Both the position numbers and the translations under genes were made by a program. Below the pieces are notes generated by a model, which worked only from the letters and a program-made list of their open reading frames with translations, did no database searches and had not been told where the DNA came from. 48,032 bases of DNA from a virus, in IMG/VR virus record IMGVR_UViG_3300031658_000014, positions 1 through 48,032 of that record; one strand, written 5' to 3'. Of this stretch, positions 1-48,032 are shown piece by piece (position 1 is the stretch's first letter; each line of letters starts with the position of its first letter).

Positions 1-345
1 TGACGAAGTATATCAACGATCCATTTCAACCCGCAACACTGGAGTTAACAGATGCCGAAGGAAAGAAATTCAAACACATCGCCGTTGAGCTGCCCTACGA
101 AATACCGTTTCGCTCTTACCCGCACGTTGACATTATCCTCTGCGGAGTCATCGATTCATACGGCACGATGGATGGTGTCAAATGTTTCAAAGACATTAAG
201 TCCACGGCATCATGGGATATACCTAAGTTCTTTGAGAAGTATCGCACCAGCATTCAGCTGATGATATATGCGTGGGCAATGCGACACCTAGGTTGGGTGG
301 ACTACTACCCGCCAGCGATGATCGACGGGATATTTCTGCGAGACA
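1..345. repeat. Terminal redundancy, left copy (pairs with 47688..48032)
   Basis: Bases 1-345 match 47688-48032 at a constant offset of 47,687. I see three mismatches: 90 (C versus T at 47777), 92 (G versus A at 47779) and 218 (T versus C at 47905). In the reading frame of the nuclease gene that crosses the junction, all three are silent (CTG/TTA Leu and GAT/GAC Asp). The contig therefore closes into a circle of about 47,687 bp. The mismatches suggest assembly from a mixed phage population rather than a physical packaging repeat, whose two copies would normally be identical. Confidence 0.95.
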
Positions 346-22660: not shown

Positions 22661-23062
22661 TTATTTCAGCGGGCTTTTAAGTTTGGCCGCTTCTGTAATC
22701 ACGTTACTCAGTCGCTCTTCCGTGGCAACACCCTTGGCTTTCACACCCGAGTCGTTCTTGTATGTTCCCTTTCGGTTACCAACAAGCTCGTCAGCTTTGC
22801 TCTTTGCAATAATGCTCAAGCCTTTTGCCCGCGACAAGTCAGCAACATCCACGCTATACGCGTTCGTAGTGTAGTATGTGATCTTATATAGTTCACCATT
22901 CGTATAGTGAACCTCAAGAGCTGACACATTGTTTGTTCCGTCTTTGGGGAACTTAGCATGGAAACCAGACTCCTGACCATACCATAGTCCACCGCAACCC
23001 GTTAGCATCGCAGCAGCAACCGCCACCGCAGCTATGATTAGTTTTTTATTTATCTTTTTCAC
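22661..23062 (-). CDS. Phage lipoprotein (133 aa)
   Basis: The start is GTG with an AAGGA ribosome site 4 nt upstream. A basic N-terminus (KKINKK), a hydrophobic core of Ile, Ala and Val, and the lipobox LTGC with Cys23 form a type II signal peptide, so the mature protein should be lipid-anchored. It follows a small membrane protein, which recalls a spanin-type lysis pair or a superinfection-exclusion lipoprotein; it is longer than most Rz1 proteins. A near-perfect sigma-54 site lies just upstream (23074-23089), with a predicted start of RNA almost at the GTG. Confidence 0.75.
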   Translation of the reverse strand: MKKINKKLIIAAVAVAAAMLTGCGGLWYGQESGFHAKFPKDGTNNVSALEVHYTNGELYKITYYTTNAYSVDVADLSRAKGLSIIAKSKADELVGNRKGTYKNDSGVKAKGVATEERLSNVITEAAKLKSPLK

Positions 23063-23073
23063 AATGTCCTTGT

Positions 23074-23089
23074 AGCAATTCGCATGCCA
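23074..23089 (-). promoter_or_regulatory. Putative sigma-54 (-24/-12) promoter before the lipoprotein gene
   Basis: On the minus strand the sequence is TGGCATGCGAATTGCT, a close match to TGGCAYG-N4-TTGCW with GG-N10-GC spacing. It fills the 30-nt gap between two genes. The predicted RNA start falls at or next to the GTG start, which would make a leaderless message that lacks the AAGGA site. Either the start site shifts or this site is not used alone. Confidence 0.55.
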
Positions 23090-26406: not shown

Positions 26407-27708
26407 CTAGGCCGCAACCCTAGTCCGACGGAATATAACCGCGAATGCATGACGACGATTCACAGGCAGAATCCCGTGAACGGTGTCGGCAATAAGCTGC
26501 ACGAATTCACCGTATTTATTCGTCTCCAACACCGGAGTTCCTGCTGTGCCGTAGTTCACGAGGAAGTCCGAAGTAAGGCGAACCTCACCATTCCAGCGAA
26601 GCTGGGAGAACTTCCGCGCATCCATACGACCTGTTCCGAATTCTTTGGGAGGTGCGCCAACGTCGATTGACTCATACGCACCACCACCAATGCAGAATGC
26701 AACCTCGAACGGTGCATCGACATACGCAGGATTCGGAATCGTCTCGCCCAAGTTGAACGTGCCACCAACGGCATTCTCAATCTGCGGCGCAGGAAACTCT
26801 CCACCTGCGTCAATACGCAACGGGAAACGTTCCGTCTTCCAAACTCCCTTGCTTCCGATCAGACCAGAAAAGTCCTCACCGGTGTAGTCCTTGTCGTTGG
26901 ATCGCAACGCAAGAACGTTCGCATCGTGCTCGAAGTATTCGAATGCTTCGTTCGAACCGACCCAGCACAGTTTGCCCTTGATCGTTTCGTTCGGAGAAGG
27001 CATACCTTGCATCTGTTCGAAACCAGGCATCTGCAAGTCCTCGGTCGCAATCGTCTGCGCCTTCTTGGCGAGGTTGAACTTCAACGCACCAGAAGCTCCA
27101 GCAGGGATCTCTGCAATCGCACCTTGAATCCACGCCGTAGTTTTCGCAGCAGTTCCAGCGATGTTGCCAATCCCAGACGGTGCAGCAACAAAGTCATCAC
27201 CGATGTATCCGCCAGTAGTCGTGGTGCTCTTACCAGCAAGCAACACATACGGGCAGTAATGAAACAGCATTGTGCGAATGAACTGATCGTTCGCAATCGC
27301 AATCTGCTGAGTGAGGTCCGCCATGTTGTGCGGAATTTGCTGGCGACGAAAGTCCGCGAACGAACCATTGAAACGAATATACTTCGTCTCATACTGATGC
27401 CTGTAAACAACCGCATCTTCAGTCCGCTCACCAGTTTGATGCACGTCACGATTCGGTGCCGCGGCAGTGATCGCATTGGGGAAGAACTGCTGACGACCAA
27501 CAGGACTGAACTCAGCGTTGACACCTTTCAGTGTATCACCCTGATTCGCTTCCCATTTTCGTTTGCCGAAGAGTTTGTTGAACACATGCCATCGCGGAAA
27601 CAATCGCGAGGACATCAGCGCCAAATGATATGGCAGCTTGTTATAGAGCGTAGTGCTCTGTGAATCCCAGATATCTGGGGTTTTGGGTAGATCGTATGTG
27701 CTAGGCAT
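26407..27708 (-). CDS. Major capsid protein (433 aa)
   Basis: It follows portal and scaffold and has the size and texture of an HK97-fold capsid protein: an N-terminal arm (LPYHLALMSSRLFPRWHVF), a long helix region around ADLTQQIAIANDQFIRTMLF, and a C-terminal domain with SLGSNEAFEYF-like and GGAYESIDVGAP stretches. GC-rich third codon positions fit high expression. It has its own cassette: a terminator at 27916-27949, a sigma-54 type promoter at 27886-27901, a short leader ORF, and a terminator at 26346-26382. The call rests on position, size and expression signals; no single motif proves it. Confidence 0.82.
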   Translation of the reverse strand: MPSTYDLPKTPDIWDSQSTTLYNKLPYHLALMSSRLFPRWHVFNKLFGKRKWEANQGDTLKGVNAEFSPVGRQQFFPNAITAAAPNRDVHQTGERTEDAVVYRHQYETKYIRFNGSFADFRRQQIPHNMADLTQQIAIANDQFIRTMLFHYCPYVLLAGKSTTTTGGYIGDDFVAAPSGIGNIAGTAAKTTAWIQGAIAEIPAGASGALKFNLAKKAQTIATEDLQMPGFEQMQGMPSPNETIKGKLCWVGSNEAFEYFEHDANVLALRSNDKDYTGEDFSGLIGSKGVWKTERFPLRIDAGGEFPAPQIENAVGGTFNLGETIPNPAYVDAPFEVAFCIGGGAYESIDVGAPPKEFGTGRMDARKFSQLRWNGEVRLTSDFLVNYGTAGTPVLETNKYGEFVQLIADTVHGILPVNRRHAFAVIFRRTRVAA

Positions 27709-27885: not shown

Positions 27886-27901
27886 AGCACATACCATGCC
27901 A
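27886..27901 (-). promoter_or_regulatory. Putative sigma-54 (-24/-12) promoter of the capsid gene
   Basis: Minus strand TGGCATGGTATGTGCT, with GG-N10-GC spacing. It differs by one base from the site at 43872. It lies just downstream of the scaffold terminator and about 180 nt upstream of the capsid ATG. Predicted RNA start is near 27876. Confidence 0.72.
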
Positions 27902-29260: not shown

Positions 29261-29525
29261 ATTTTTTCAGGGCGTTAAGTGTTCGTGCTTTGTTTAGTTT
29301 GTATCTCAGCTCATCGGAGTTGCGGCCGATGTTATCTGATTCTTCTGTGGTTTCGTCGACAAGTTCAAGATACTCAATTTGAATATTCAGCATGAGTAAC
29401 TTAAACAAAGGGTTTGCTTCAAGCATCGCACGTAGGCGTAGCTTTTCATTTGCAATTTGTGCACGGTCTATGTCGGTCAACCCAACCAGTCCGTGCTTTT
29501 TAATCAGCGCACTAAGCTCCTCCAT
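29220..29525 (-). CDS. Hypothetical helical protein (101 aa)
   Basis: I chose ATG at 29525 because GGAGG lies 5 nt upstream; another in-frame ATG at 29537 has a poorer site. The protein is all helical and charged, with a coiled-coil pattern around ANEKLRLRAMLEANPLFKLL. It overlaps portal at its start (14 nt) and scaffold at its end (41 nt), so it is tightly coupled to both and may assist head assembly. Confidence 0.65.
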   Translation of the reverse strand: MEELSALIKKHGLVGLTDIDRAQIANEKLRLRAMLEANPLFKLLMLNIQIEYLELVDETTEESDNIGRNSDELRYKLNKARTLNALKKYVNTDYTTTRLRS

Positions 29526-31425
29526 CTTGGCCTCCATCTTCGCCAGCGGATTTCATATGCTCTTGTGCGCCTGCTAGAACATCTTGGACTTTTTGCATCG
29601 CCTCGGGCGGTAAGTTCGCGTTTTGCGAGACCGCTTGTAGAGTCGTAGCAAGTGCTTGTATAATCCCGCCAGTGGGCTTCTCGGTCCGTAGAATCTTTTC
29701 ATATCTATCAGCTTGGTCAGGCAACGCTTGCTTGAGCATATCAATCATAAACTCCAGCTTCAGTGACGTCGCACTAGCCACAGGCCAGAATTCTTGCATC
29801 ACGGACAACATACGTTGCTTTTGCACAACGTCGTTTTCACCTGCTGACTTTATCACAAACGAACACTCCAATAGTGTCAATCGTTCTTGCGACTTGTCGT
29901 TTGCTTTAAATGTATCGGTTGTCTCATCTTCGCCCGGTTCGACTACTCGCAGAAAGTTCGGCAGATCACCTTGTCTTGCACGTGCCTGAGCAATCGCCCA
30001 ACTGCGCCGCACAATCGCTGTCTGAAACGTAGACCATCGCGTAACTGAAATCCCATCCAGTCCACTTTGCGCGCTTTCAGCTACTTCAAATTCTTTCTTC
30101 GTCTTACGCGCATCCTTACGGTTCAACACGCCCACATTAAGCGCACCTGTCTCTTGTGAGTTTTCACCTGCAAGTGCCTGCGCCGCAAGTATAGCAGTCC
30201 CGTCTGGCGAAGGCGTCGACCAGAAGTCCACAGCCTTGTCATACATATGATCCGGGCGTAGTTCAGAATTCTCCAACACACTCGGTGCGCCTGCTCGTGT
30301 CGTGTTTGCTGCTTTAGGCGATGCGTAAATGTTAGAGCTACGCACAAGTTTATTAATAAACCCAGTCCACATCGACGTCTGCGCCTCCTGCGTGTGGTAG
30401 TCGTAAAATGCACGCCCGCGATTCTCCACAATCGACGACTCTTCTGTCCCGTGGCTAACGAATATGTCAATCGGAAACTCTGTCTCATACAACGGGCCAC
30501 CGTCCTCATTCAAATCACTCGCTTTAAACGCAGATTGTATCTCACCTAGTCGCACGTTGCTTCCTAACTTCTTCCCTAGGAACAACGGCTTCGGCACTTT
30601 CAACCACTCCATACAGCTCTCGTGATACCACGCCGTATACACAGTCCCGTTGTCAGCCTTATACAACAACTGATACACTTGCAACACAGTATCACCATAC
30701 TCTGCCGAAGACTTCTGCGCCAACATATCGACTTGATCTGCGTCGAATCCGAACTTCTTCACCCAGCTCTTGAGCTTCGACACCGTAGTATCCACGATCA
30801 CAGACACATACTCCGCCATCTGAATGTCCGTGATCCCAATCGGAAACATGAACTTATCCGTTGCAAGAAACTTGTGCGAGAAATGTCCAGGCTTGTCAGG
30901 ATCGAATAGTGTCTGCAACCCAGCCCACCCAGATAACCACGCCGCATCGAGACATTTAAAGTGAGGCTCTTCCCAACCTTCAAAGCGGGACACGCGTGTG
31001 AAATCTACTTCGAGCTTGTCTGTGTTGATACCGAAACGATCTTCACATTCAAACAATGCAGTCCGTGTAGGTAGCTTTAGGTATGCCACAAATGGCGGCT
31101 TGGCTCGTTCGATATTGGTATCGACAATACGTCGCGGATACATTCCCGCGTCTTTGGCGATCTTGCCGCTAGCACGCATGTCTTTGACATTGACATCGGC
31201 TTTGCGAACTTCGCGGTCGTTGGCGACTTGGGTGTGGATCTTTCCCCAGTCTTGGTGTAGTCGTGCGAGTTTCTCTTTGTGGTCTGCCCACGGCCAGATG
31301 AACGTGTTGCTCGTGGAGAATTCCGGCGCGAATCTTTGCTTCTCGTCTTGTTCAGGCGTAGTCAGGAGTTGTCCCGCCATCGCAAAGGTTTCTTCTACTG
31401 ATTGAAGTGTAGTTGCTTTCGGCAT
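29512..31425 (-). CDS. Portal protein (637 aa)
   Basis: Position directly after large terminase, a length near that of podovirus portals, and the layout (N-terminal wing with RIVDTNIERAKPPFVAYLK, WEEPHFKCLDAAWLSGWAGL, long C-terminal helices, and a Gln/Ala-rich end QDVLAGAQEHMK) fit a portal. It forms the dodecameric DNA gate at one capsid vertex. The last 60 residues have a barrel-like Gln/Leu/Ala pattern. The start is ATG, 4 nt from the terminase stop. Confidence 0.82.
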   Translation of the reverse strand: MPKATTLQSVEETFAMAGQLLTTPEQDEKQRFAPEFSTSNTFIWPWADHKEKLARLHQDWGKIHTQVANDREVRKADVNVKDMRASGKIAKDAGMYPRRIVDTNIERAKPPFVAYLKLPTRTALFECEDRFGINTDKLEVDFTRVSRFEGWEEPHFKCLDAAWLSGWAGLQTLFDPDKPGHFSHKFLATDKFMFPIGITDIQMAEYVSVIVDTTVSKLKSWVKKFGFDADQVDMLAQKSSAEYGDTVLQVYQLLYKADNGTVYTAWYHESCMEWLKVPKPLFLGKKLGSNVRLGEIQSAFKASDLNEDGGPLYETEFPIDIFVSHGTEESSIVENRGRAFYDYHTQEAQTSMWTGFINKLVRSSNIYASPKAANTTRAGAPSVLENSELRPDHMYDKAVDFWSTPSPDGTAILAAQALAGENSQETGALNVGVLNRKDARKTKKEFEVAESAQSGLDGISVTRWSTFQTAIVRRSWAIAQARARQGDLPNFLRVVEPGEDETTDTFKANDKSQERLTLLECSFVIKSAGENDVVQKQRMLSVMQEFWPVASATSLKLEFMIDMLKQALPDQADRYEKILRTEKPTGGIIQALATTLQAVSQNANLPPEAMQKVQDVLAGAQEHMKSAGEDGGQDGGA

Positions 31426-31429
31426 AAAT

Positions 31430-33040
31430 TTAGTTTCGTGTTGCGCCCATGTAACCGTAGACTGGTGCAGATTTTCGCGACTCTCCGCGCGCGTCTACGC
31501 CAGAGAAAGAATATTTGCTTTTATCGTATTCCGCAATAATATCTTTAGTGGTTCTGCGACGAAGCAGACGTGAATTTTTAACTAGGTGTTCGTTTGAATA
31601 GAGCGGGTATTCCTTATCAGCAAGAGCAAGAACTGTGCCATCAGCACGGTCAGGAGATCCGTGACCTTTCGCACGTGCAACACGTTTTGACTCAAGCACA
31701 ATTTTTCCGTGAACCGCGCCTTGCATATAGTATCGTGTCGCAAGTTGCCGCTTGAGTGCGTCGTCGTCGAACAACACAAGGTCTAGGTTCTTGAGGAATA
31801 TTGCAAAGTTAAACCACATCTCTGCGCCGCGATTACCGTATGTCGAATTGTCAATCGCCCGCGCTTGGTTCAATACTCGGTTAACTTGAAACCCGTCCTT
31901 CCACAACTGATCTATCATAGACTTGCCCACGCCGCCGTCGTCAGCGTTGATATTTTCTGGCGGAATCTTATACCTATTTATCAAACCCTTCACATGATCC
32001 ACCGCATCGGTCGTGTCGTCATACCTAAAGCAAGGCATCGCAATCTGTTTGTTGCCATCAAATATACTGAACACATTTTCGTCACCTCCCGCCGCAAGAT
32101 CAAGCCCACCGTATCGTATGCCTGTCGGTATCACAACCGGAGGTTTTCGATACGCGCGCATGACCTCTTCAAATGTCATCACTAGCATCTCGTCTATGCT
32201 ACAAAATTCGGCTAGGTATGCAGACCTAAACCACGCGGAATTTTCACCGAATCGTTCTCGCGCTTCGTCTACTTCGTCCTGTGATATGTGCGGACAGTCA
32301 CGATACGTGACTTTGAACCGATGCCAACGCTCTGACTCGAAACAACCATAGAAATGCCCGGATGGGGAACCTGGTGAAGACACATCCAACCGCCGAGTGA
32401 GATTATTACACCGGGCGAGAGCTTCGAAAATGGGCTCCGTGACAGTTTTTGCTTCGTCAACAAAGATTGCAAATTCGCCATCGGGTCGGAGAGTGTGATA
32501 ACCTTCAGCCAAGCCCGCGTCGTCGGTAGCAAAGAGTTGGATCTTAGATTTGGTTGGGATAAATGTGAGACTGCGGTAGTTGATCTTCCAGAGGATTTCG
32601 CCATGGAGCTCATTGATAAATCTGCACAGCCGTGAAACTGCGTAGAAGGTTTGTCTGTCAAGTTGCGTGCCTGACGCGGAAGTAATCACACAATTCGCTT
32701 CCACGTGCGCCATCGCAAGCCACACTGCACACGGTGCAATTAAAAACTGCGATTTTCCCGAACCATTGTTCGCGCACGTCGCAATACGCAACACTTTATC
32801 CGGCAGCTTGCCATGTGCAAACAACGTCATGACTTGAATCTGCCATGTGTGCACTTTTACGTCGTGATCGCGGATGTATGGGTCGTAGATGTGCAACAAC
32901 ATCAACGGATCTTTGATCTTGAACCCATTTGCGCCAGCCCAACCCTTCGCATCGGTAATCGACGCTTTAGGCAAGCGCGATTCCTGGTCGACAGTGGCGT
33001 TTTTGATCTGTGCTTCTACTGTTTGTCGAAAAGGCGCCAT
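31430..33040 (-). CDS. terL: Terminase large subunit (536 aa)
   Basis: Packaging motor and nuclease. Walker A is ANNGSGKS at residues 90-97, Walker B with the catalytic Glu is FVDEAK at 193-198, and a coupling motif lies around DVSSPGSPSG. The RNase H-like nuclease has acidic sites at Asp314 (GGLDLAAGG), Asp367/Asp368 (NADDGG) and the SPDRADG stretch near 462-468. It starts inside the lipase gene (25-nt overlap). A sigma-54-like site lies in its 3' part (31625-31640). Confidence 0.93.
   Translation of the reverse strand: MAPFRQTVEAQIKNATVDQESRLPKASITDAKGWAGANGFKIKDPLMLLHIYDPYIRDHDVKVHTWQIQVMTLFAHGKLPDKVLRIATCANNGSGKSQFLIAPCAVWLAMAHVEANCVITSASGTQLDRQTFYAVSRLCRFINELHGEILWKINYRSLTFIPTKSKIQLFATDDAGLAEGYHTLRPDGEFAIFVDEAKTVTEPIFEALARCNNLTRRLDVSSPGSPSGHFYGCFESERWHRFKVTYRDCPHISQDEVDEARERFGENSAWFRSAYLAEFCSIDEMLVMTFEEVMRAYRKPPVVIPTGIRYGGLDLAAGGDENVFSIFDGNKQIAMPCFRYDDTTDAVDHVKGLINRYKIPPENINADDGGVGKSMIDQLWKDGFQVNRVLNQARAIDNSTYGNRGAEMWFNFAIFLKNLDLVLFDDDALKRQLATRYYMQGAVHGKIVLESKRVARAKGHGSPDRADGTVLALADKEYPLYSNEHLVKNSRLLRRRTTKDIIAEYDKSKYSFSGVDARGESRKSAPVYGYMGATRN
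31625..31640 (-). promoter_or_regulatory. Putative sigma-54 promoter inside terL, ahead of portal
   Basis: Minus strand TGGCACAGTTCTTGCT matches TGGCACG-N4-TTGCT at all but one base and has the correct spacing. It is in coding sequence about 200 nt before the portal start, so it could give extra portal-scaffold mRNA. Coding-region location lowers confidence. Confidence 0.5.
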
Positions 33041-33777
33041 ACTAGTCTCTTATATTTACTCATATCGTGGTCTTGAACTGGGTTAAAGTTAAATTGGCGT
33101 ATTGCACTCCACACTCCTTGGAATAAATCACGCAATAGAAACATGCGCGAAGGATTTACGTGGAACTCGCCACGTGTATCGAAGTGAATAAGCGGGACTG
33201 CAATACGCCGAAAATTAATCACAGGAATCCACGTCACAATATCGTTGTTGTCCCGAAACGTGACCGCATGCTTGTCGCCAGCGAACCTACGTGCGTATTT
33301 TCCGTTCCCTACTCGAGGACTAGCGAACGCGCACAGGTAAATTGCCGGGTTTGTGGTTGGGAATCCGTATGTTTTCGTGTTCGAATACATAATCGTCGCT
33401 ATCGCCGCGCCTAGACTATGCCCTGTGAACACAATTCTGTCATACGTAGGTTGGCGACGCAAGATTTCAACCAACAACCCTAACCACACCCCTTGCACAC
33501 GTCGCATAAACCCACGATGCACGCGACTTCCATCTTTGTCGAACTTCACTTTCCTCACCATCACGTTCGCAACCCAGTCTCGCGCCGCAAGCGTGCCGCG
33601 CACTGCCACATACAACGTCCTGTCTTTGTTGTCTAGGTGCAGTATCGCATGTGTGCCGTGAGTTCCGTCGAACTTCATATACAGGCTTGAATCGCCATAT
33701 GCCTCAACACACAAATCTGCCGCGCAAGTGACCCATCGTGACTGTAGATGCGCGTGTTTGTATATCGGGTTAGACAT
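33016..33777 (-). CDS. Class 3 lipase-like alpha/beta hydrolase (253 aa)
   Basis: A full class 3 lipase signature is visible: the YVAVRGT oxyanion strand, nucleophile elbow GHSLGA at 119-124 (Ser121), then FASPRVGN at 151-158, Asp179 in NNDIVTWIP, and His198 in PLIHFD. Such enzymes hydrolyse acylglycerols or other esters. No signal peptide is seen. It sits between small and large terminase, overlapping both, so it is made with the packaging proteins. It could be a virion esterase acting on surface lipid or acyl polymer, or a lysis helper; the sequence does not say which. Confidence 0.85.
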   Translation of the reverse strand: MSNPIYKHAHLQSRWVTCAADLCVEAYGDSSLYMKFDGTHGTHAILHLDNKDRTLYVAVRGTLAARDWVANVMVRKVKFDKDGSRVHRGFMRRVQGVWLGLLVEILRRQPTYDRIVFTGHSLGAAIATIMYSNTKTYGFPTTNPAIYLCAFASPRVGNGKYARRFAGDKHAVTFRDNNDIVTWIPVINFRRIAVPLIHFDTRGEFHVNPSRMFLLRDLFQGVWSAIRQFNFNPVQDHDMSKYKRLVWRLFDKQ

Positions 33778-34189
33778 CAACTGGTTGCCCTTTCGTAATT
33801 CGCTCGTTGAGTCGCAACATATCTTTCTCGTAGCTGCTATTCGCTTCCACGATCACAGTGTTGAACACCGCCGCCGTCATTTCGCTTTCACGCTCGCCTG
33901 GATTGAAACATCCGTGCGCGAGTTTGATAATAAACTCACTTGCCCGCTGCGCCACACCCGGCGATTCTTCTTCCAGATACGTCAAGTTCTGCATCGTCCG
34001 CAACGCTCCTGGCGCAAGCTTCGCCGCCTCTTCTTGCAAGTCTAACGTCGGCGCCTTACGCCCTTTCGCAGACATCAAACATATCTGCGTCACCGCCTCT
34101 GGCGTCATTCCCATCGCATCGGCAATACTTTCTATCGGCATCCCTTGTTGGTGATGCATCGCCGAGATTCGCTTTTGATCGCTGTTCAT
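33770..34189 (-). CDS. Probable terminase small subunit (139 aa)
   Basis: An N-terminal HTH-like segment (MHHQQGMPIESIADAMGM, then TPEAVTQI) followed by helices, at the head of the packaging operon and two genes before terL. This fits the DNA-recognition subunit. No diagnostic motif beyond the HTH was seen, so the call is by position and fold pattern. Confidence 0.62.
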   Translation of the reverse strand: MNSDQKRISAMHHQQGMPIESIADAMGMTPEAVTQICLMSAKGRKAPTLDLQEEAAKLAPGALRTMQNLTYLEEESPGVAQRASEFIIKLAHGCFNPGERESEMTAAVFNTVIVEANSSYEKDMLRLNERITKGQPVDV

Positions 34190-34407
34190 ATTGTTACGCC
34201 AGTAAACTGTTCCACCAACATTCTTTCGCTCTCCCTCGCTTCACCTTTGATGTCTGCGTCGTGCGCCGCAGGCCTACGGCTCGCACATTCGCCCTCTTCT
34301 CCTTTCCACCTCCACTGCAACATCTTATTCATCGGCGCCGTCGTCGCACTTCTAATCGTTGCACTCCCAAACCCTACTTCTTTTCCTCTATGCTTGTGTG
34401 TATTCAT
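34186..34407 (-). CDS. Possible small first gene of the late operon (73 aa)
   Basis: An open frame from ATG at 34407 whose stop overlaps the small terminase ATG (ATGA). That coupling, and the sigma-54 site just upstream at 34420-34435, support it. Against it: no clear ribosome site beyond GATAGAGA, an Arg/Glu-rich composition with no recognisable fold, and a predicted RNA start only 2 nt before the ATG. It may instead be leader sequence. Confidence 0.45.
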   Translation of the reverse strand: MNTHKHRGKEVGFGSATIRSATTAPMNKMLQWRWKGEEGECASRRPAAHDADIKGEARESERMLVEQFTGVTI

Positions 34408-34419
34408 TCTCTATCTTAT

Positions 34420-34435
34420 AGCAATTCCCATGCCA
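34420..34435 (-). promoter_or_regulatory. Putative sigma-54 promoter of the late (structural) operon
   Basis: Minus strand TGGCATGGGAATTGCT is a textbook -24/-12 element (TGGCAYG-N4-TTGCT). It stands in the gap upstream of every structural gene and points into them. Predicted start of RNA is near 34409. Confidence 0.78.
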
Positions 34436-34842
34436 TGCTTCCGTGCGTCGTTTCGTGTACCACGTTTTCACAATCAAATATGTCAAGTCGATTCGTAATT
34501 TTGGTCATTTTGTAAGATATACACTGTTCGGATGCCGAACTCAGATCGGGCTTTTTATTTCCGCGGCGTAGGATTAGATCGCCTAATGGTTAGCATAAGG
34601 AAAACTAATCATAAGTGAATTACTTATATATGTTAAGCGCGCGGGAAGTTAATACATACGCCAAGCGGGGACGCCGTGAATCCTTAACAACTTTGGTTAG
34701 GAATTGAATCGCCAGTGTGAAAACCCTAGAAAATCGCCGGAGGATCAGAGAGCACGACGAGAGGGCAAACATGAAACGCATATGTCTTTTCAGAATATCC
34801 GGTTTGGTCTGGGGAATGGGCGGTTACTCTTTTCCGTGGAAT

Positions 34843-35007
34843 GTGAAGAGAACCTTTCCATTCCACCCCCCCGCTCTCGAATGGGCAAATGGGCAATTCC
34901 ACATTAAAGAGGATTTAATAAAAAAAACATATATACCAAATACTCTCTTTTGTGGTCTACCAAAGTTGCTAACAGTCGACGGAGAAGTAGTGAAGAGAAC
35001 CTTTCCA
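34843..35007. repeat. 18-bp direct repeat pair
   Basis: GTGAAGAGAACCTTTCCA occurs at 34843-34860 and again at 34990-35007, 147 bp apart, within the non-coding region. It might be a binding site pair or part of an RNA fold. Confidence 0.85.
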
Positions 35008-35097
35008 CATTCCACATTCTCTCCCTTGTCCCTTGTCCGGTTCATGGTTCATACGGTTCCACGCTTTGCTTTGATTCACGCCAGAGGATGAAGGAAT

Positions 35098-35182
35098 GAA
35101 GGAGCGGGAGAGTGAAGGAGCGCACGACGCAAGGGAATGGACAAGGGAAGGAGCGCGGAGAATGGGAGTGAATGAAGGAGCG
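35098..35182. repeat. Four copies of GAAGGAGCG in a purine tract
   Basis: GAAGGAGCG starts at 35098, 35114, 35147 and 35174, and the last two extend to GAAGGAGCGCGGAG. Each copy contains a perfect Shine-Dalgarno-like AAGGAG with no start codon in reach. Irregular spacing (16, 33, 27) argues against a phased iteron array. Confidence 0.8.
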
Positions 35183-35283
35183 CGGAGGTAATAGGTAAAG
35201 GGGAAAAGGAGCATGGGAAAAGAATCAGAAGAAAAAGCGAATAGGGGGTTGACGGGAAAAGGGAAAGAGTCCATTCTCTCCGT

Positions 35284-35322
35284 GTCGCCAATTGGTGACC
35301 CGGATTTATCCGGTTGTTTTTT
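35284..35322 (+). terminator. Possible terminator in the divergent region
   Basis: Two adjacent hairpins, GTCGCC/GGTGAC with an AATT loop (35284-35299) and CCGGA/TCCGG with a TTTA loop (35300-35313), are followed by TTGTTTTTT. It could mark the 3' end of a plus-strand RNA made from this region. Confidence 0.55.
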
Positions 35323-35623
35323 GACAGGTTCGCAGTTGAGACGGTTTCCATGAAACCAGATTGACTAGAACAAATTGAATAGGTGAAAGGAAAACCTTTC
35401 ACGCCGGTGGAGTATCGGCACAAGTCCTAAGCTTGCGAATGAGTTCATTGCCTTCGAAAATTCAGGGTTACAAGCCAAAGTAGAGTTGTGTCTAACGTTC
35501 AAGATCGGCGGTGAAATGGAATGGCCGGAAACTTAGAGAAATTGGGTTTACATAGGAGAATCTCTGGATTCTAATATGTGGATTCGCCCGGTAATAATGC
35601 CACGAATTCACATTTTAAAACCT

Positions 35624-38679: not shown

Positions 38680-38695
38680 TGGCATGGTTCTTGCT
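38680..38695 (+). promoter_or_regulatory. Putative sigma-54 promoter of the helicase/activator operon
   Basis: TGGCATGGTTCTTGCT matches TGGCAYG-N4-TTGCT fully, in the 78-nt gap between genes ending at 38674 and starting at 38753. RNA would start near 38706. The operon it heads includes the sigma-54 activator gene at 42878, so it suggests positive autoregulation. Confidence 0.78.
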
Positions 38696-38752: not shown

Positions 38753-39118
38753 ATGACAATCAAGCACACACAAACACGTGCGCCAGTTAGGGTTGCTAAC
38801 CACTTTCGCGTTGCTAAGTATCGCGAGACACTGTGGATAGTGTATACACTGACTGATCTCATTGCCAAGATCAAAGCGTCGATGCTAGCATCAGGTAAAC
38901 ACAGGCATATTGTGGTCGTGACACACTTCGATCATGTCAGTGTGGACAGTGATGGTGTGACGTTTCACAGGTATGAAAGTATCAGCACAGGACATTCGTA
39001 TATGAATAACGAAATCATTATACCATCGTGCGAACTTACGGCAGGTGCATTAGAGAGGCTTGAACATATGCAAGAACACTCTGCACTATGCAGTCAAGTT
39101 GATCGACAACAATCATGA
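38753..39118 (+). CDS. Hypothetical protein (121 aa)
   Basis: First gene after the 38680 promoter. Mixed alpha/beta composition with HRHIVVVTHFDHVSVDSDG in the middle; no family recognised. No clear ribosome site. The stop overlaps the next ATG (ATGA). Confidence 0.65.
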   Translation: MTIKHTQTRAPVRVANHFRVAKYRETLWIVYTLTDLIAKIKASMLASGKHRHIVVVTHFDHVSVDSDGVTFHRYESISTGHSYMNNEIIIPSCELTAGALERLEHMQEHSALCSQVDRQQS

Positions 39119-42464: not shown

Positions 42465-42885
42465 TACAGACCTGACCAAAGAAGAGATTGCGGACGGCGA
42501 CGACTACATTGCCGAGACAATCGCGCAACAAGCGCGAGACAAAGCTGCGGCAAAGAAACCACCAGCACGACAGCTTGAATTGTATGTGATCTTCGCGTGG
42601 AAGACACCGCAGTATAGGCTGCACGAATGGTGTCAGACTGGTGAGACGGCACCTAACGACTCTCAGTGTGTGCATTGTGATCGCACGATGGGTGACGCTG
42701 ATGATCGTGTATGTGATTCAGGCATGGCTGGTGCGCTTGGTGGATGGAACGACTACAAAGGTGGTAGTGGAAACTTCGGCATTGCGATGTTGAAGTGGCA
42801 GACATTGAAAGCGCAAGGACATAACAACTGTCAGGTGTTGAACATACACAGCGGCAAGCTAGAGTTGGAGGTGTATGATGCTTAG
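42457..42885 (+). CDS. Hypothetical protein with CxxC pair (142 aa)
   Basis: N-terminal 45 residues are charged and helical. A central WCQTGETAPNDSQCVHC region may hold a metal. The rest is beta-rich (GGSGNFGIAMLKWQTLK). It directly precedes and overlaps the sigma-54 activator gene, whose GGAGG ribosome site lies in its last codons. No family recognised. Confidence 0.6.
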   Translation: MSDTDLTKEEIADGDDYIAETIAQQARDKAAAKKPPARQLELYVIFAWKTPQYRLHEWCQTGETAPNDSQCVHCDRTMGDADDRVCDSGMAGALGGWNDYKGGSGNFGIAMLKWQTLKAQGHNNCQVLNIHSGKLELEVYDA

Positions 42886-43861
42886 CACAGAGGAGTTGGC
42901 GCGGATAAATGAGGCGACCAAACGGCAAGCGGCAACTGTTGAAGCGAACAAGGCGCGGTTGCTAAATCAACCACCGAACCCTAGCGGAGTGGATCACGGT
43001 GCGATCAAACGTAAGCTAGAAAAGATGGGACTGTTTGAGTTGGCGAATGATCTCAAGGTCTGTCGTCCAGCAAGTCTTGCTTCGCTTGATGAGTTTATCA
43101 CAGATGACGCGGCGATGTTGCGGCTCAAGAAACAGGTTGAGTATCTGTGCGAGATGGATGACCCAGTGTTGATTCACGGTGAGAGTGGGACAGGCAAGGA
43201 GTTGATAGCTCGTGCGTTGCATGGACGAAAGTCAGCGCCGTTTATCGCAGTCAACACGACAGCACTACCACTTCATCTGATGGAGAGTGAGTTATTTGGT
43301 CATGCGAAAGGATCATTCACCGGTGCAGATGCGAACAAGATCGGGATACTTGAAGGCGCAGGTAACGGGACTGTGTTTCTGGATGAGATAGGTGACATGG
43401 AGTTGACGCTGCAATCGAAGTTGTTGCGTGTGTTGCAAGAGAAAGTAATCAGACCTGTCGGCACGAATGCTGAGCGTGAGATACATTGTCGAGTAGTGGC
43501 AGCCACGCATCAGGTGATACGACGTGAGGAAACAGTTCATGGAACTAAGTCAGTCACGTGGAAGAAAGGTTTCCGTCAGGATTTATACTGGCGTCTTGCT
43601 ACACACACGCTTCACATCTCACCGCTTCGTGATCGTCCAGATGATATCCGTGAGATACTAGATGCGGTCATAGATCCTGACCAACGATTGCCTGAATCAT
43701 TCCGTGACGAGATGGTAACGATGCAACTGGAAGGCAACTTCCGTGAACTCAATGCGTTGTGTCAGCGTAAGTTTCTTGCAATGAAAGTGGACGATACGCA
43801 GGGTGAACTTTATATACCCGGTGTTGTGACACACGCAGCCTACGTCCACACAAAAGAGTAA
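42878..43861 (+). CDS. Sigma-54 activator AAA+ protein (enhancer-binding protein core, 327 aa)
   Basis: I chose ATG 42878 because GGAGG lies 6 nt upstream (an ATG at 42875 is also possible). Motifs: Walker A GESGTGKE (101-108), the sigma-54-contact loop GSFTGA (145-150, the usual GAFTGA with one change), Walker B GTVFLDEIGD (164-173), arginine-finger segment FRQDLYWRL (232-240), then LRDRPDDI, and sensor II around GNFRELNAL (286-294). ATP hydrolysis by such hexamers opens the closed sigma-54 promoter complex. It has no receiver, GAF or other sensor domain; about 60 N-terminal residues are novel, and there is no C-terminal Fis-type HTH. It may therefore act from solution or through another protein. 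Confidence 0.93.
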   Translation: MLSTEELARINEATKRQAATVEANKARLLNQPPNPSGVDHGAIKRKLEKMGLFELANDLKVCRPASLASLDEFITDDAAMLRLKKQVEYLCEMDDPVLIHGESGTGKELIARALHGRKSAPFIAVNTTALPLHLMESELFGHAKGSFTGADANKIGILEGAGNGTVFLDEIGDMELTLQSKLLRVLQEKVIRPVGTNAEREIHCRVVAATHQVIRREETVHGTKSVTWKKGFRQDLYWRLATHTLHISPLRDRPDDIREILDAVIDPDQRLPESFRDEMVTMQLEGNFRELNALCQRKFLAMKVDDTQGELYIPGVVTHAAYVHTKE

Positions 43862-43871
43862 CGCAACCTGT

Positions 43872-43887
43872 TGGCACGGTATGTGCT
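43872..43887 (+). promoter_or_regulatory. Putative sigma-54 promoter just after the activator gene
   Basis: TGGCACGGTATGTGCT has TGGCACG exactly and GG-N10-GC spacing, with one deviation (GTGC for TTGC). It starts 11 nt after the activator stop. RNA would begin near 43898 and cover 43915-44899, ended by the terminator at 44869-44899. A CCACCTCC stretch in the leader copies the anti-Shine-Dalgarno core. Confidence 0.75.
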
Positions 43888-43914: not shown

Positions 43915-44148
43915 ATGAACAAGAAAATATTTAGAAATTCTGTCGGCTGGATTGTTCTGGTATGGAATCGTGCTGACTGGGAGTTCATCGCAGTCCATGA
44001 GAACGGTTGCTGTAAGGACATACCGTGGACAGCAGTGGAAGAGAAAGATAAAAGTCTTGCGATTGATACGATCATCGGCAAGCTGACAAGACGTGAGTTC
44101 AAATACCAACAAGAACTCCAACAAGATTTGCCCAACGCTACTTCGTAG
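43915..44148 (+). CDS. Hypothetical protein (77 aa) in the sigma-54 operon
   Basis: First gene of the predicted transcript. The product has an aromatic-rich N-terminal half (GWIVLVWNRADWEFIAVHE) and a charged C-terminus. No ribosome site was seen before its ATG, only the anti-SD-like CCACCTCC. No family recognised. Confidence 0.6.
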   Translation: MNKKIFRNSVGWIVLVWNRADWEFIAVHENGCCKDIPWTAVEEKDKSLAIDTIIGKLTRREFKYQQELQQDLPNATS

Positions 44149-47366: not shown

Positions 47367-48032
47367 GCCTTAAACGATTCAGCAAATATACAACCTACGT
47401 CCCCGGTGAGAAACTCATCGTGCGACTAGATCCATCCACGTTTGCAATCTCTGACTGCGAGCGTGAGCTTGAGCTAGGCAACCTGTTAGGTTGGGTGGAG
47501 AAAGTATCGTCGCACAAAATGGAATACGGTTCTGCGATTCACAATGCGGCGGCGGAATTTGTCAGCAAGAAGTGCACGGTCATGCAAGCGGTGCAAGTTG
47601 CGATGGAATACTTTCGTGACTGTGGTTGTGATCCCGGCAAAGACTGGCGTAACGCTGGGCATTTGCTAATGACCACGAACGGATACCTGACGAAGTATAT
47701 CAACGATCCATTTCAACCCGCAACACTGGAGTTAACAGATGCCGAAGGAAAGAAATTCAAACACATCGCCGTTGAGTTACCCTACGAAATACCGTTTCGC
47801 TCTTACCCGCACGTTGACATTATCCTCTGCGGAGTCATCGATTCATACGGCACGATGGATGGTGTCAAATGTTTCAAAGACATTAAGTCCACGGCATCAT
47901 GGGACATACCTAAGTTCTTTGAGAAGTATCGCACCAGCATTCAGCTGATGATATATGCGTGGGCAATGCGACACCTAGGTTGGGTGGACTACTACCCGCC
48001 AGCGATGATCGACGGGATATTTCTGCGAGACA
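47363..48032 (+). CDS. Cas4/RecB-like PD-(D/E)XK nuclease, N-terminal part (continues at 1..638)
   Basis: ATG at 47363 overlaps the preceding stop. This part holds the putative first iron-sulfur cysteine (Cys32, ISDCEREL), His60 (GSAIHN), Asp160 (GVIDSYG), and Asp173/Lys175 (FKDIKST). The frame is open to the window end and continues into base 3 of the window. The three base differences between the two copies are silent. Confidence 0.9.
   Translation, partial: MSLKRFSKYTTYVPGEKLIVRLDPSTFAISDCERELELGNLLGWVEKVSSHKMEYGSAIHNAAAEFVSKKCTVMQAVQVAMEYFRDCGCDPGKDWRNAGHLLMTTNGYLTKYINDPFQPATLELTDAEGKKFKHIAVELPYEIPFRSYPHVDIILCGVIDSYGTMDGVKCFKDIKSTASWDIPKFFEKYRTSIQLMIYAWAMRHLGWVDYYPPAMIDGIFLRD
47688..48032. 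repeat. Terminal redundancy, right copy (pairs with 1..345)
   Basis: Repeat of bases 1-345 with three silent differences, at 47777, 47779 and 47905 in this copy. It shows a circular or permuted map and a mixed template population. Confidence 0.95.

Follow-up and report, generated by a model that had tools for sequence, protein, structure and literature searches.

Promoters of the sigma-54 type carry the consensus TGGCACN5-7TTGCT (PMC12316311), and closed complexes of sigma-54 polymerase need an AAA+ activator to open, as is well established (PMC9770992, PMC6028918). Activators of the NtrC, PspF and FleQ class (bEBPs, PF00158) have an AAA+ core with Walker A and B motifs, a GxFTGA-type loop and an arginine finger region; a C-terminal Fis-type HTH is present in most of them, not all, and is not strictly defining. 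The HTH-less bEBPs FlgR of Helicobacter and CtcC of Chlamydia are host proteins that have receiver domains and are thought to act from solution.

Several phages turn on their late genes through the host polymerase by means of a phage factor, as P2 does with Ogr and lambda with Q. Activation of T4 late genes likewise involves the host polymerase and a phage factor (PMC2988020). The window analysed here, the whole 48,032-nucleotide stretch of viral DNA (IMG/VR record IMGVR_UViG_3300031658_000014), would resemble T4, P2 and lambda in having a phage product that turns on late genes via the host polymerase. Those phages rely on the sigma-70 polymerase, on replacement of the sigma or on antitermination, whereas host sigma-54 and a remodelling ATPase are proposed for the present phage. 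Comparison of sequences makes it likely that it switches on its late genes with host sigma-54 polymerase and an activator of its own. We know of no phage that runs its late genes in this way, and the literature searched, largely without subscription papers, contained no description of a sigma-54 activator encoded by a phage, nor of late promoters of the sigma-54 type. The timing of late genes by a phage's own sigma-54 activator looks like a previously undescribed viral strategy.

A stand-alone activator and its phage lineage

The activator gene, which the earlier note on the promoter at 34420 did not mention, lies in a rightward region together with helicase, polymerase A, ligase and primase genes:

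42875-43861, plus strand: stand-alone sigma-54 AAA+ activator (bEBP), 328 aa, PF00158 at E=1.6e-53

The Sigma54_activat domain (PF00158) scored 181 bits against a curated cut-off of 20.2, and the best PDB relatives are the AAA+ domains of FleQ, NtrC-type proteins and PspF. The AF2 model (pLDDT 86), which ends after the AAA+ lid, gave Foldseek matches to FleQ, FlrC, NtrC1 and PspF. The protein contains Walker A (GESGTGKE), a GSFTGA loop, Walker B (FLDEIGD) and an arginine-finger region, and Walker A, Walker B and the arginine finger region are invariant columns in the activator alignment (A4). The sigma-54 contact loop is of the GAFTGA type but departs from the classical loop at its second residue, reading GSFTGA in the window and most relatives, GAFTGA in two (G008 and G016) and a variant such as GSYTGA in a few. 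PF00158 was present in all 18 family members scanned, in which no HTH or other DNA-binding family, including the Fis-type HTH, was found. The phage protein thus has the core, motifs and fold of the NtrC, PspF and FleQ class and differs from it in being virus-encoded, 240-330 aa long, mostly GSFTGA and devoid of a receiver or Fis-type HTH. It shares with FlgR and CtcC the absence of a DNA-binding domain and differs from them as a viral stand-alone core. The window activator also matches PHROG 7998 (5e-42), a family of unknown function, which suggests a function for that family.

No phage-encoded sigma-54 gene was found in any record tested, so that host rpoN would be required. The records of Listeria phage LM 4-14-1 and Salmonella phage S.Kent 1-2-1 match bacterial-type sigma-54 activators, and several such 'phage' records look like host contamination.

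The many relatives of the window activator in IMG/VR fall into full-length bacterial types, mostly in open frames of 450-640 aa, and short stand-alone proteins of about 240-330 aa, and in a tree the bacterial types branch apart from the short phage ones with a support of 0.975. The short activator is encoded on 27 other IMG/VR contigs, which share with the window terminase, portal, capsid-like, tail, polymerase, primase and helicase genes at 25-48% protein identity and therefore form one divergent phage lineage. Among records of at least 47 kb chosen by the capsid-like protein, 21 of 21 have the short activator; the records without it are fragments shorter than 37 kb. Judged from these genomes, the lineage consists of widespread, uncultured phages that share the activator and the promoter arrangement.

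The nearest annotated relatives of the window's terminase large subunit (TerL) by tblastn are terminases of Akkermansia phages (33% identity), a weak hint of a host in Verrucomicrobiota. A search of genomes with the terminase yielded no host, and a search of viral contigs with the single terminase protein yielded no relatives. The polymerase was also tried as a host clue and set aside, since only cellular-type polymerases (22-26% identity) were retrieved from genomes.

The two ends of the window (3-89 and 47690-47776; about 343 bp per end) carry a near-identical repeat inside an exonuclease-like gene, and the record is therefore probably a complete genome with terminal redundancy. Rfam and tRNA scans of it were empty.

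Sigma-54 sites and the genes they face

The earlier note had described a textbook sigma-54 promoter in front of the structural operon, and the minus strand does read TGGCATGGGAATTGCT at 34420-34435. The site sits in the gap that precedes the leftward packaging and structural genes, and it faces them. The genes, called with a simple ORF finder, are as follows:

34420-34435, minus strand: predicted sigma-54 promoter TGGCATGGGAATTGCT ahead of the terminase/structural operon, predicted start about 34409
34186-34407, minus strand: 73-aa ORF that begins 2 nt past the predicted start and whose stop overlaps the next ATG (ATGA)
33770-34189, minus strand: putative terminase-small-subunit-like protein (TerS), 139 aa, second gene after the promoter, assigned by position and an HTH-like N-terminus
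33016-33780, minus strand: class-3 lipase-like protein (PF01764, 1e-22) whose gene lies inside the packaging operon, flanked by the TerS-like gene and TerL
31430-33040, minus strand: TerL, from tblastn to annotated terminases and a family alignment
29512-31425, minus strand: portal candidate by position, with conservation in 14 genomes
26407-27708, minus strand: major capsid protein candidate, 433 aa, from position and conservation

Past TerL the operon continues with portal, capsid-like and tail genes. A family search with the capsid-like protein gave no match, and its low-confidence model, too poor to prove a capsid fold, had phage capsids as its best PDB matches, none of them significant; position and conservation point weakly to 26407-27708 as the major capsid protein.

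The 34420 site has the consensus GG and GC of a -24/-12 promoter at the fixed spacing (-24 GG at 34434-34433, -12 GC at 34422-34421). A matrix trained on other genomes only, without the window, scored it at 19.1, and shuffled windows average 0.12 matches at 16.5 or above and 0.48 at 14 or above. A sigma-70 scan of the gap gave one match against 2.8 expected, nothing notable, so the statement that no other promoter is visible holds for the gap but not for the operon, which has further sigma-54 sites at 27886 and 23074.

The window contains five TGGCA-N6-TTGCW sites against a mean of 0.3 in dinucleotide-preserving shuffles, none of 200 of which reached five, and there are variants at 27886 and 43872. 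Besides the 34420 site, those scored by the same matrix are:

38680-38695, plus strand: predicted sigma-54 promoter TGGCATGGTTCTTGCT upstream of 38753-39118 in the rightward (early/middle) part of the window, score 23.6
31625-31640, minus strand: possible internal sigma-54 site TGGCACAGTTCTTGCT within the 3' end of TerL and 200 nt upstream of the portal gene, score 21.0
27886-27901, minus strand: sigma-54-like site TGGCATGGTATGTGCT, 178 nt ahead of the capsid-like gene, score 17.5
23074-23089, minus strand: predicted sigma-54 promoter TGGCATGCGAATTGCT directly before a small lipoprotein-like gene (22661-23062), score 16.9
43872-43887, plus strand: sigma-54-like site TGGCACGGTATGTGCT, 11 nt past the activator stop codon, score 12.6

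The site inside TerL is uncertain as a sigma-54 site, with a counterpart at the same place in one relative (G023) and no conservation otherwise. The weak 43872 site is directed into 43915-44148 and beyond, away from the activator gene and toward the exonuclease/polymerase side, and would therefore not be simple positive feedback on the activator. The sigma-54 reading predicts several exact transcription starts, two of which (23063 and 34409) fall no more than 2 nt from the downstream start codon, and messages from these would be leaderless or nearly so. Many window genes have no obvious Shine-Dalgarno sequence ahead of them.

Three classes of position are conserved among relatives when scored by a leave-one-genome-out matrix, and the window sites at 43872, 27886 and 34420 belong to the first, second and third class, respectively. 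The first, 3-46 nt past the activator stop, is occupied in 21 of 27 relatives; this number includes several near-identical marine contigs, and dereplication reduces it to six of 12. Three further relatives have a site at 439-689 nt. The second, 108-178 nt ahead of the capsid-like gene, is occupied in all 14 genomes with that gene, and the third, ahead of the TerS/TerL operon, in most relatives. A few relatives lack one conserved site, and G024 has none at the threshold used. An independent set was drawn from 41 loci found by the capsid-like protein alone, of which 28 were left once already-used loci and duplicates were excluded; TGGCAY-N6-TGCT occurs within 420 nt upstream of the capsid-like gene in 27 of these 28, against 3.5% of random windows.

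The enrichment, the consensus match, the phage's own activator and the equivalent sites across the lineage all support the reading of the 34420 motif as a sigma-54 promoter. Together with the full explanation of the late switch, we hold with good confidence that it is a genuine RpoN -24/-12 promoter belonging to a phage-run regulon.

Between the divergent halves of the window, 34440-35575 is a 1.1-kb stretch without convincing genes. Imperfect repeats of the GAATGAAGGAGCGC type and an 18-nt direct repeat without mismatches occur in this stretch, which is possibly an origin or early-promoter region.

Proposed late switch

Host RNA polymerase with host sigma-54 would sit as a silent closed complex at the phage late promoters, preloaded in front of the terminase operon, the capsid-like gene, the lipoprotein-like gene and a few others. 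This silence would end when the phage makes the AAA+ activator from its rightward helicase/polymerase/ligase region; using ATP to remodel sigma-54, the activator would open the promoters together, leading to packaging and structural expression. The placement of the activator among replication genes, combined with late sigma-54 promoters, could provide a built-in delay and a sharp switch. Comparative evidence favours the proposal that the 34420 site is a late-switch promoter, but not that it is the single one: the small regulon to which it belongs has about six promoters, and the actual switch is probably the activator gene rather than this promoter.

A shared enhancer (UAS) upstream of target promoters is usual, not universal, for bEBPs, and a search for shared k-mers upstream of the target promoters found none beyond chance in five genomes, a weak test. 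With no DNA-binding domain in the activator and no such element found by this search, activation from solution is likelier than activation from an enhancer, and this mode, proposed by analogy with the HTH-less bacterial activators, is the most likely one.

These two observations would also fit promoters that are real but fired by host activators responding to nutrient or stress signals, with the phage AAA+ protein serving another purpose, for example hijacking or blocking host sigma-54 programmes, and other viral contigs carry sigma-54-like sites with no detected activator. This reading is unlikely, as the phage activator is found in every near-complete member of the lineage, retains the sigma-54-contacting loop and the catalytic motifs, and has a promoter placed right after its gene. 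Slightly less probable again is an activator aimed mainly at the host sigma-54 regulon (motility, envelope and nitrogen genes), for which the phage promoters would be secondary. The bEBP mechanism implies that an activator free of DNA binding should act on any sigma-54 closed complex, but the phage sites are strongly conserved and stand before terminase and capsid-like genes. Host and phage targets are compatible rather than exclusive.

A wider form of the preferred reading, late-gene activation by the phage's own protein, accommodates both. Throughout the lineage, late promoters may be preloaded with silent host sigma-54 polymerase, and the DNA-binding-free ATPase may be a diffusible key to every closed complex, firing those at phage promoters and those of the host sigma-54 regulon at once, with the sigma-54 barrier as the timer; we advance this tentatively, rating it somewhat below an even chance. 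If late-gene activation by the phage's own protein is correct, it would represent a new class of viral late switch and would tie phage success to the sigma-54 state of the host. The activator would also offer mechanism studies a natural sigma-54 activator core that is minimal and has no DNA-binding domain.

Site enrichment across genomes

Thirty contigs contain the motif 63 times with the correct spacing of 6 nt, against 7, 7, 1, 6, 3 and 7 times at spacings of 3, 4, 5, 7, 8 and 9; these contigs include two with bacterial-type activators (G036 and G037), and one of the 63 sites is in G036, leaving 62 for the lineage including the window. Although the genomes are about 94% coding, 42 of the 63 sites are intergenic, compared with one of 31 at the other spacings (Fisher P ~1e-9). 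Removal of similar genomes (13 kept) left 43 sites at the correct spacing against 0-6 at the others (P ~1e-22). Columns unused in the selection also fit the sigma-54 consensus, with Y in 42/42, R in 41/42, the final T in 42/42 and T at -1 in 33/42. Among controls, 11 other phages (447 kb) hold one site, with no excess, the sites are not in excess either in prophage records that have host-type activators, and the feces phage MT121960, which has a distant PF00158-like region, has no sites.

Chance or coincidence with coding sequence is a highly improbable source of these matches. Some exact matches do lie inside genes, but only the 6-nt spacing is enriched, the sites are intergenic, and they recur at homologous places in genomes with 25-48% protein identity. 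At the level of the lineage the chance reading is refuted, and single weak sites such as 31625 may be chance matches. An exact 16-mer scan of viral contigs, which gave at least 120 matches against 10 for a spacing-shifted control, was set aside because it is confounded by peptide coding, GGCATGGTTCTTGCT being able, by our own reading, to encode the common peptide GMVLA. Only three of the 44 long records matched by that scan have the short activator.

That the motif is recognised by some phage or host protein other than sigma-54 is scarcely credible: all informative positions, unselected ones included, match the sigma-54 consensus, and motif and sigma-54 activator co-occur across the lineage.

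In other viral contigs, sigma-54-consensus sites form tandem arrays with a period of 27-29 nt (L127:18-256, L148:3009-3196 and L202:3012-3163), and no activator was detected in most long records of this set. The arrays may be decoys that draw host sigma-54 polymerase, or they may be of another nature. Facing palindromic pairs of sigma-54-like sites, TTGGCATGGTTCTTGC-TAAT-GCAAGAACTGTGCCA, occur at L149:8887-8920 and L199:2288-2321 and in L159 and L231.
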